Below the pieces are notes generated by a model that did no database searches, was not told the DNA's origin, and worked only from the letters and a program-made list of their open reading frames with translations. From Cyanobacteria bacterium K_Offshore_surface_m2_239 (GTDB lineage: Bacteria; Cyanobacteriota; Cyanobacteriia; PCC-6307; Cyanobiaceae): a stretch of DNA of 37,970 nucleotides. Position numbers and translations under genes: made by a program. The stretch covers positions 1 through 37,970 of the forward strand of contig VGQX01000009.1 in NCBI GenBank assembly GCA_016882305.1, read 5' to 3'. Of the stretch, positions 30,319 through 34,759 are shown one piece after another; within the stretch, counting starts at the first letter, position 1; every line of letters begins with the position of its first letter.

Positions 30319-30341
30319 GCGGCCTGAACGGGCCGCTTTTT
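30319..30341 (+). terminator. Intrinsic terminator after HU
   Basis: GCGGCC (30319-30324) and GGCCGC (30331-30336) enclose a 6-base loop and are followed by TTTTT. It lies 26 bp after the HU stop. A reading frame beginning at 30340 would start at its end, supporting the later gluQ start. Confidence 0.9.
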
Positions 30342-30408: not shown

Positions 30409-31485
30409 ATGGGGCTTGACCTGCGCCAGCAGGGGGTGAGCGGCCGTTTTGCCCCCTCGCCCAGCGGCGCTCTCCACCTTGGCAACCTGCGCACGGCGCT
30501 GCTGAGCTGGCTGGCTGCCCGGCGGTTCGACGGTCGCTGGCTTCTCCGCGTCGATGATCTCGACCGGCCGCGGGTCCGGCCGGGCTCGGAGGCCTCCATC
30601 GTTGAAGACCTGCGCTGGCTGGGACTCCACTGGGATGGTCCCGTGATCCGCCAGAGCGAGCGCCGGGGCCTCTACGCCTCCGTGCTGTCCTGGCTGCGGC
30701 GCTCGGGCCGGTTATATCCCTGCCATTGCAGCCGCCGGCTTCTCGCAGACATCTCCGCTCCCCACGGGGGCTTCACGCCCTACCCCGGAACCTGCCGGAT
30801 GCTGGAACCGTTCTGGGGACAGCGGCAGGGGCGCTGGCCCAGCTGGCGGCTGCGGCTATCCGAGGGGACAGTGGCCTGGCAAGAGCGCTGGGGGCCACCG
30901 GGGACCCTCGACGGGCCGCGCGAGATCGGTGACGTGGTGCTCCGTCGGGCTGATGGCGTGGTGGCGTATCACCTGGCCACAGCCGTGGATGAGCTCACGT
31001 TGGGGATCAGCGAGGTCATCCGCGGGGCCGATCTGTGGGCGTCCACCGGCGCCCAGGTGGCCATCATCGAGGCCTTGGGCGTTCCGCCGCCCCGCTACGG
31101 CCATGTTCCTGTGCTGTGTGATGACGACGGCCGCCGCCTGAGCAAGCGGACGGCCGCCGAGGGGCTCGTGGCGCTGCGGGAGCAGGGACTGGATGGGCCG
31201 GGGGTGATCGGCTGGCTGGCCGCCAGCGCGGGGTTGGTGCCCGCTGGCAGCCGGCTCAGCGCTGGCGAGTTGCTGGCCGACCTCCGCCGCCGCCCCCGCG
31301 CCTGGGACGAGGCTTTTGGGGCAGACGCCAAAGACGCCGAGACCAACGAAGACAACGAAGTCAGAGAAGGGACCGAAGACGCCGAAGAGACGGAAGACGC
31401 CGAAGGGACCGAAGACACCAAGGCTTCAGAAAGCTTTCGGATTCCACCTCCCGCGGGGAGCGGGGAAGGAGGGCAAAGTGTGTAA
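30409..31485 (+). CDS. gluQ: Glutamyl-Q tRNA(Asp) synthetase with repeat-derived acidic tail
   Basis: GluQ (YadB) is a truncated glutamyl-tRNA synthetase that attaches Glu to queuosine in tRNA(Asp). From ATG 30409 it has 358 residues. It has the HIGH-type motif RFAPSPSGALHLGN (13-26), zinc-binding CHCSRR with a later YPGTC, YHLATAVDELTLGISEVIRGADL, and the KMSKS-like RRLSKRTAA. No anticodon-binding domain is present, as expected. The normal protein should end around RPRAWDEAF; beyond residue 304 comes an Asp/Glu/Thr-rich tail of about 50 residues encoded by a 9-bp minisatellite, which is foreign to the family. It follows the HU terminator. Confidence 0.93.
   Translation: MGLDLRQQGVSGRFAPSPSGALHLGNLRTALLSWLAARRFDGRWLLRVDDLDRPRVRPGSEASIVEDLRWLGLHWDGPVIRQSERRGLYASVLSWLRRSGRLYPCHCSRRLLADISAPHGGFTPYPGTCRMLEPFWGQRQGRWPSWRLRLSEGTVAWQERWGPPGTLDGPREIGDVVLRRADGVVAYHLATAVDELTLGISEVIRGADLWASTGAQVAIIEALGVPPPRYGHVPVLCDDDGRRLSKRTAAEGLVALREQGLDGPGVIGWLAASAGLVPAGSRLSAGELLADLRRRPRAWDEAFGADAKDAETNEDNEVREGTEDAEETEDAEGTEDTKASESFRIPPPAGSGEGGQSV
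31321..31419. repeat. 9-bp minisatellite inside the 3' end of gluQ
   Basis: Eleven 9-bp units with consensus GAAGACGCC run in the gluQ frame, each coding roughly for Glu-Asp-Ala. The central units at 31375, 31393 and 31402 are near-identical. On the other strand the consensus reads GGCGTCTTC. The array changes gluQ into a protein with an acidic tail. Confidence 0.9.
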
Positions 31486-31508: not shown

Positions 31509-31820
31509 ATGACCGCTCCCTCGTCCCTGCTGGCTCCGCCCGCCAAACCCCGCCTGGTGGCCGCTTGCCGACGATGCGGTGGCAGCGGCATCCTCCGTTT
31601 GGCGGATGGCCGTTTTCGCACTTGCCTGGATTGCCTGGGGCAGGGCATCGCGCCAGCGACGGTCACGGAGCCGCTGCAAGCCTCCGGCGGATCAGCGCAC
31701 TCCCGATCGCTTCGATCGCCAGATGAAGAAGGTTGCCGTGCCCACGACCGCAGCCAAGGGAGCGGCGGTCAGCAACAGGAGAAGGACGGCGGTCCAGTCT
31801 GTGTACATCCCTGCGGTTGA
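31509..31820 (+). CDS. Small DnaJ-type zinc-finger protein
   Basis: From ATG 31509 the frame codes for 103 residues. It contains CRRCGGSGI and, after a 12-residue spacer, CLDCLGQG, the paired CxxCxGxG type of zinc finger found in DnaJ and small cyanobacterial proteins. The part after GQG is low-complexity and lies antisense to a candidate membrane ORF (31692-31808), so the true product may be shorter or the reading of the tail may be neutral. The function is unknown; roles in thiol chemistry or pigment-protein assembly are only guesses from the domain. Confidence 0.6.
   Translation: MTAPSSLLAPPAKPRLVAACRRCGGSGILRLADGRFRTCLDCLGQGIAPATVTEPLQASGGSAHSRSLRSPDEEGCRAHDRSQGSGGQQQEKDGGPVCVHPCG
31692..31808 (-). 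CDS. Candidate 38-residue single-span membrane protein
   Basis: On the minus strand an ATG at 31808 opens a 38-codon frame ending at TGA 31692-31694. The protein has a short polar start (MYTDW), a continuous hydrophobic stretch (TAVLLLLLTAAPLAAVVGTATFFIW) and a basic tail RSKRSGVR, the shape of a small photosynthetic or NDH-1 subunit. I could not match it to psbN, psbM, psbT, petN, petM or psaM from memory. GCAGG touches the start codon, so the ribosome binding site is weak. It lies entirely antisense to the zinc-finger frame; one of the two may not be real. Confidence 0.4.
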   Translation of the reverse strand: MYTDWTAVLLLLLTAAPLAAVVGTATFFIWRSKRSGVR

Positions 31821-31870
31821 AACGCTTTCCCATCATCTCAGCCCCGGGGGGCCAGCGCGTGGCTCGGGCT

Positions 31871-34045: not shown

Positions 34046-34759
34046 GGACACCGCGTCTGCGGCCACGGAGGCGGCGACAGAGGCCGAGCCCGTCGTCGTC
34101 TTTGCCGCGGCTTGCGGGCCCGTCATCTTGGCCGCAGCTTGTGGGCCCCTCGCCTTGTCCGCCACTCCCGCAAACGTGAGCGGTGGCGGCAACAGCAGGG
34201 GGATCCCCGGACTGAGGCGCTTCTGCCCGAGTTCGGCAAGAGTCAGTGGTTGGACCGTTTCCAGGATCGCCTCGCGCCGACTCAACATCCACACCGCCTG
34301 CACCACCTGCTGCCATTGCCAGAGCATGAGGCCCAGCAGCAGGGCCGCCAACAACAGGGCCACCAGGCGCGGCAGGGGGCCAGATGTCCACAGAGGCGCC
34401 GCGAGAGCGGACCGTTGATCGAGGCGAATCAGCAGGGGCAGCAAGGCGAGAGCGCCCAGGGCCGGACCGAGCAGCTTCAGAGGCGGACTGTCCTGGAGAC
34501 GGCTGAGACGCCGCTGCAGATCACGCCGACCCAAAGCCGGCGTCTGCGCCAGCAGCAGGGACCAGACATCGGCCGGCAGGCGCCAGAGCAGCAGCGCGGG
34601 GGCCAGGCCCCCCAGGGCCCAGCAGAGCACCTCCTCCACCAAGGGGGCCGGGCCGGGATCGCTCCCGGCCAAGACCACCAGGAGCAGCAACGCCTCCAGG
34701 GGAAACACGGCCAGCCCCGAGAGCTGGATCCACAGCAAGGGCTCCGTGCGGGGATTCAA
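33959..34759 (-). CDS. Low-complexity tail membrane protein
   Basis: A 266-residue protein with several hydrophobic spans (WIQLSGLAVFPLEALLLLVV, LGGLAPALLLWRL, LLGPALGALALLPLLI, LVALLLAALLLGLMLW) joined by short loops, then a conserved-looking cytosolic piece (RREAILETVQPLTLAELGQKRLSPGIPLLLPPPLTF). It ends in an Ala/Thr/Lys/Gly-rich tail of about 65 residues with two 9-residue repeats of GPQAAAK(M/T)T type. The layout and place next to infB match the cyanobacterial 'low-complexity tail membrane protein' family. Function unknown. The tail is partly antisense to the second membrane span of the convergent DUF3493-like gene. Confidence 0.8.
   Translation of the reverse strand: MNPRTEPLLWIQLSGLAVFPLEALLLLVVLAGSDPGPAPLVEEVLCWALGGLAPALLLWRLPADVWSLLLAQTPALGRRDLQRRLSRLQDSPPLKLLGPALGALALLPLLIRLDQRSALAAPLWTSGPLPRLVALLLAALLLGLMLWQWQQVVQAVWMLSRREAILETVQPLTLAELGQKRLSPGIPLLLPPPLTFAGVADKARGPQAAAKMTGPQAAAKTTTGSASVAASVAADAVSSLHGESLPVKPEQGAANPDGDNLDQPVA
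34095..34148. repeat. 27-bp direct repeat in the tail of the membrane protein gene
   Basis: Two 27-bp units (34095-34121 and 34122-34148) differ at only a few bases and encode the GPQAAAK repeats of the minus-strand low-complexity tail. Confidence 0.85.

Follow-up and report, generated by a model that had tools for sequence, protein, structure and literature searches.

GluQRS enzymes generally lack an anticodon-binding domain C-terminal to their catalytic part. The window analysed here, a stretch of 37,970 nucleotides from the Cyanobium-like picocyanobacterium Cyanobacteria bacterium K_Offshore_surface_m2_239, encodes a member of this family, and its GluQ shares the catalytic body, the conserved positions and the fold of GluQRS/YadB (TIGR03838; E. 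coli 1NZJ and 4A91). Most relatives end at or near the position of the old stop codon, whereas the GluQ of the window continues for 54 extra residues, made up of 33 repeat codons, then the old Lys-Ala end and then 19 codons of read-through. The extension is probably the product of slippage expansion in an unconstrained C-terminus combined with the loss of a stop codon, a near-neutral change that would leave a normal GluQ with a disordered acidic tail.

A typical GluQ body precedes the tail

The GluQ frame lies on the forward strand and runs from a likely ATG at 30409 to a TAA at 31483-31485, giving 358 amino acids; the ATG was assigned as the start from the sequence, although the frame extends openly from a TTG further upstream, at 30340. 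The first 304 codons (30409-31320) form the enzyme body, which contains a PF00749 domain. Three GluQRS models were passed: TIGR03838 at 290.4 bits (cut-off 276.7), NF004314 at 294.2 (cut-off 256) and NF004315 at 267.2 (cut-off 250). Two other GluQRS models scored below their cut-offs (NF004313, 243.9 against 380; NF004312, 175.2 against 453), as did the GluRS model TIGR00464 (202.9 against 289.95). Among solved structures, E. coli YadB/GluQRS (1nzj, 4a91) is the closest in sequence. A fold search placed the cyanobacterial GluRS 2cfo at the top and GluQRS 4a91 third, with a TMt of 0.84. Judged by sequence, the gene is gluQ, as an earlier note on this DNA had proposed, encoding a tRNA glutamyl-Q34 synthetase with a typical enzyme body. 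The genome also possesses tgt, which scored 468.5 bits (cut-off 306.75).

In an alignment of 41 selected rows, H23, G25, K246 and Y125 are invariant, and C105, C107 and C129 are nearly so. HLGN and LSKR can be read in the GluQ sequence, and we take H23 and G25 with HLGN to be the class I HIGH-like signature and K246 in LSKR to be the KMSKS-like lysine. Residues C105, C107, Y125 and C129 correspond to the zinc site, Cys-x-Cys followed by Tyr-x3-Cys.

An AlphaFold2 model built from 41 sequences has a pLDDT of at least 90 at 240 of 358 residues and of less than 50 at residues 117-120, 307-348 and 350-358. The last modelled helix ends at residue 303, apart from a four-residue turn of low confidence at 307-310, and everything beyond is predicted to be disordered, in keeping with a GluQRS that has no anticodon-binding domain. 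Since the predicted disorder of the tail begins behind the last well-modelled helix, tRNA binding need not be disturbed by it.

An imperfect in-frame array of 9-nt units forms the first part of the tail

The body is followed directly by a tandem array at 31321-31419 on the forward strand, which consists of exactly eleven 9-nt units in the gluQ frame and so comprises 33 codons. The units are, in order, GCAGACGCC AAAGACGCC GAGACCAAC GAAGACAAC GAAGTCAGA GAAGGGACC GAAGACGCC GAAGAGACG GAAGACGCC GAAGGGACC GAAGACACC. They are imperfect: an exact GAAGACGCC occurs in only two of the eleven, and the majority consensus is GAAGACACC. Tandem Repeats Finder (TRF) reported 10.8 copies at period 9 (68% matches, score 66) and, within the array, a higher unit of period 18 with 2.8 copies (87% matches, score 88). 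The period-9 self-match of the array is 0.64, compared with an average of 0.30 (sd 0.057) across every 99-nt window of the stretch; this value is reached only by the array itself, in five registers, and marks the strongest period-9 region in the window. The eleven in-frame units described by the earlier note at the end of gluQ are therefore borne out by TRF and by self-match.

The array is translated as ADAKDAETNEDNEVREGTEDAEETEDAEGTEDT, in which 16 of 33 residues are Asp or Glu and two are Lys or Arg, and Glu is the first residue in nine of the eleven units. Five of the six reading frames are open across the array, so openness alone is no evidence of coding. Differences among the units, counted against the consensus GAAGACACC, comprise 17 nonsynonymous and three synonymous changes. 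The synonymous share of 15%, against 19% expected at random, gives no sign that the amino acids of the unit have been kept by purifying selection, although 20 differences are not enough to rule out that acidity is weakly selected.

The tail is absent from other GluQ ends

A survey of GluQ ends was drawn from a family search of 400 genomes, in which 166 others matched at E values up to 1e-90; 107 of these were taken and 106 were readable (L134 gave no hit), so that the remaining 60 matched genomes and 233 genomes without such a match lie outside the survey. The 106 genomes, which include all 41 other genomes of the genus, were joined by 20 named loci (L140-L159). After a second copy of the G013 locus (L077) had been dropped and identical sites merged, 113 other distinct sites remained, mostly from Cyanobiaceae. 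None of the 113 carries an array-type tail. Measured from the SAGEL position, the relatives have about 8 to 57 further residues (median 21; genus median 23) and the window has 70, these lengths being approximate as they are based on the end of the tblastn alignment. The most acidic end among the 113 relatives has a net charge of -5, compared with -13 in the window, and the longest (L088, 57 residues) has a net charge of +2. The nearest GluQ among the genus genomes is 70% identical, and the nearest relative (L061) lacks the array. An acidic tail that the family lacks, as claimed previously, is thus what was found, with 16 Asp/Glu in 33 residues and nothing like it at the 113 other ends.

More distant sequences were covered by a further 60 loci (L160-L219), mostly from other bacterial phyla, of which 59 were usable; L185 has no stop in its stretch. 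Short GluQ-like ends are present in 24 of the 59, and the other 35, which run on for at least 149 residues, are probably GluRS. The observation that would have contradicted the earlier note, a conserved acidic tail in distant GluQ, did not appear: within the last 90 residues, none of the 59 loci exceeds nine Asp/Glu in any 33 residues, compared with 16 in the array. A literature search of titles and abstract openings gave no account of this case, which is not to claim that such tails are unpublished, and the passages of PMC3542578 that were consulted mention no natural tail.

A conserved element at the gluQ end has lost its stop codon

The end of gluQ in relatives overlaps a conserved element with the consensus GGCTTAAGGAAGGTTTCGGGATC. 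Allowing up to six mismatches, the element lies near the stop at 91 of the 113 sites, compared with none of 113 for the reversed consensus. Its TAA is kept in all 91, where it is the gluQ stop in 75; the stop lies upstream in 15 and downstream in one. Allowing up to two mismatches, a 20-nt core of the element occurs exactly once in each of 28 genomes out of the 42 of the genus, always at a distance of no more than about 180 nt behind gluQ, and the reversed control had no match.

The window possesses an altered copy of GGCTTAAGGAAGGTTTCGGGATC at 31422-31444 on the forward strand, which differs at five of 23 bases and was located with a matrix built from relatives alone (score 21.4; next best place -3.4). 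A search with a 22-nt consensus allowing up to three mismatches found no match in the window because this copy carries five. Two relatives, L002 and L005, also have five mismatches to the consensus, so only the change in the TAA and a longer spacer set the window element apart; with a mismatch count that is not exceptional, the element is altered rather than decayed. The spacer concerns a second box, CACASTG-like in relatives, whose counterpart in the window is CAAAGTG at 31474-31480 on the forward strand. The distance from element to box is 18 nt at 82 of the 91 sites, with four box forms allowed, and 29 nt in the window, as counted by eye. Rfam searches had no match up to an E value of 1 in the window between 30800 and 32200 and none at the gathering score in five relative loci. 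The bipartite element of Cyanobiaceae, GGCTTAAGGAAGGTTTCGGGATC followed after 18 nt by the CACASTG-like box, possibly serves as promoter or leader for the CxxCGGSG gene that lies downstream, and it may merit more attention than the tail itself.

Immediately behind the array, AAG GCT (31420-31425, forward strand) encodes Lys-Ala and corresponds to the final two codons ahead of the stop in relatives. The sequence around it matches that in relatives such as L006 (CCAAGGCTTAA), which shares the CCAAGGCTT context, and the array therefore directly adjoins the old Lys-Ala end. The next codon, at 31426-31428, is TCA where the 91 element-bearing sites have TAA, and the window element is the only copy seen with this change, which is in frame. 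As a result, the frame continues through 19 codons that include the lost stop (SESFRIPPPAGSGEGGQSV; 31426-31482, forward strand) to the TAA now used at 31483-31485. The earlier view that the repeat makes the GluQ tail thus holds for the array but accounts for only part of the extension, as the stop changed to TCA and 19 non-repeat residues lie behind it.

A single base separates this read-through from a normal stop, and the assembly is in 343 contigs with 3.33% contamination, so that part of the tail could be an assembly error: the stop codon could contain a miscalled base (TCA for TAA), or the number of units in the array could be incorrect. This appears quite unlikely, given that the element differs at five of 23 bases rather than at one, that the spacer is 29 nt instead of 18, and that imperfect units are unlike the expected result of a collapsed or duplicated read.

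Selection for the tail itself is a further alternative, in which the acidic chain would compete with RNA at the surface that binds tRNA, adjust the affinity, or help GluQ to stay in solution or attached to a partner. An open and strongly acidic frame is also expected under selection for charge, and the strong charge and intact frame of the array, the typical enzyme body and the presence of the tgt gene are all consistent with it. Against these stand the absence of the tail from the 113 other sites, the lack of any excess of synonymous change among the units, and the final third of the tail, which is plain read-through; selection of the tail is accordingly regarded as unlikely. A more specific form is extremely unlikely: here the tail would be an electrostatic tuner of recent origin, an acidic chain of slippage-dependent length competing with tRNA-Asp for the enzyme, so that the length of the array would set the level of glutamyl-queuosine between strains.

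Searches of the genome gave no further copy of the array

Alternatively, the array could have come from a dispersed minisatellite or mobile repeat, one copy of which inserted into gluQ. Within its own genome, of which an estimated 95.6% is present, a BLAST search with the array found, besides the array, five matches 14-42 nt long whose E values were 2.39 or worse. A degenerate pattern allowing up to three mismatches matched the window only, and a pair of exact GAAGACGCC units had no match, which is explained by the imperfection of the array. The check for the array elsewhere in the genome that the earlier note had suggested therefore revealed no second copy by BLAST or by degenerate pattern. 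The same pattern with up to three mismatches matched in 17 of 60 genomes (its own, included in the 17, and 59 relatives), compared with 20 for the reversed control, and with up to two mismatches in 13 of 386 genomes of the phylum, its own included, compared with 24 for the control, both control totals being counted by hand. As the pattern is no commoner than its reversed control, no dispersed family of the array unit was found.

Another Cyanobiaceae genome does possess a similar array, at positions 630-732 of locus L233, with 11.4 copies of the 9-nt unit GAAGGCACC on the minus strand. It lies within an open frame of 726 codons that includes an rve integrase-core domain, a setting that speaks for a dispersed repeat. 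It is not read there as Glu-Gly-Thr, and it is taken as an independent case. The want of a second copy in the own genome, the excess of the reversed control over the pattern across the phylum, and the position of the array, which adjoins the old Lys-Ala codons with no other foreign sequence behind it, make a landed repeat very unlikely.

Features downstream of gluQ

The downstream frame with the motif CxxCGGSG...CLDCLGQG (31509-31817) has 57 residues behind the motif, compared with a median of 25 (19-53) at 75 other loci with copies unmerged. Its alignment suggests a frame change near its end, and no Pfam family scored over its cut-off. A 38-residue membrane-like protein beginning MYTDWTAVLLLLLTAAPLAAVVGTATFFIW is encoded on the minus strand at 31716-31829, convergent and overlapping with the long CxxCGGSG frame; close versions are present in the four relatives checked, and it has no Pfam match. 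Further along, TRF reported a 27-nt tandem repeat with 2.6 copies and 80% matches at 34094-34162.

Discussion

Slippage followed or preceded by stop loss is the reading preferred here, and it starts from features that are seen directly: an in-frame array that the examined relatives lack, a homologous element with a changed stop, and a typical enzyme body. A 9-nt unit, in part an 18-nt unit, would have been duplicated by slipped strands, adding roughly 28 codons before the old Lys-Ala-stop to a C-terminus of GluQ that is variable in this lineage. The substitution of TAA by TCA would also have altered the conserved element where gluQ meets the next gene and given the frame 19 codons, and the two events may have occurred in either order. 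The resulting protein would be a normal GluQ whose 54-residue tail, disordered and acidic, has little or no effect. We infer that slippage was the cause, that the change was near neutral and that the tail is translated. The case is judged to be ordinary; the acidic tail may have a function, but none is supported by the evidence. Its interest lies in being a small, clear example of how the end of a protein can grow, with a repeat expansion and a lost stop superimposed where relatives keep a conserved element.

Two general classes offer comparison. Bacterial coding minisatellites (VNTRs) resemble this locus in that a short tandem unit, divisible by three in length, is repeated in imperfect copies within a variable protein end; the gluQ units differ in being strongly degenerate, which suggests that the array is perhaps no longer active. 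Stop-loss C-terminal extensions share the substitution of an ancestral stop and a short run to the next in-frame stop, to which the gluQ case adds a repeat expansion directly before the stop that was lost.
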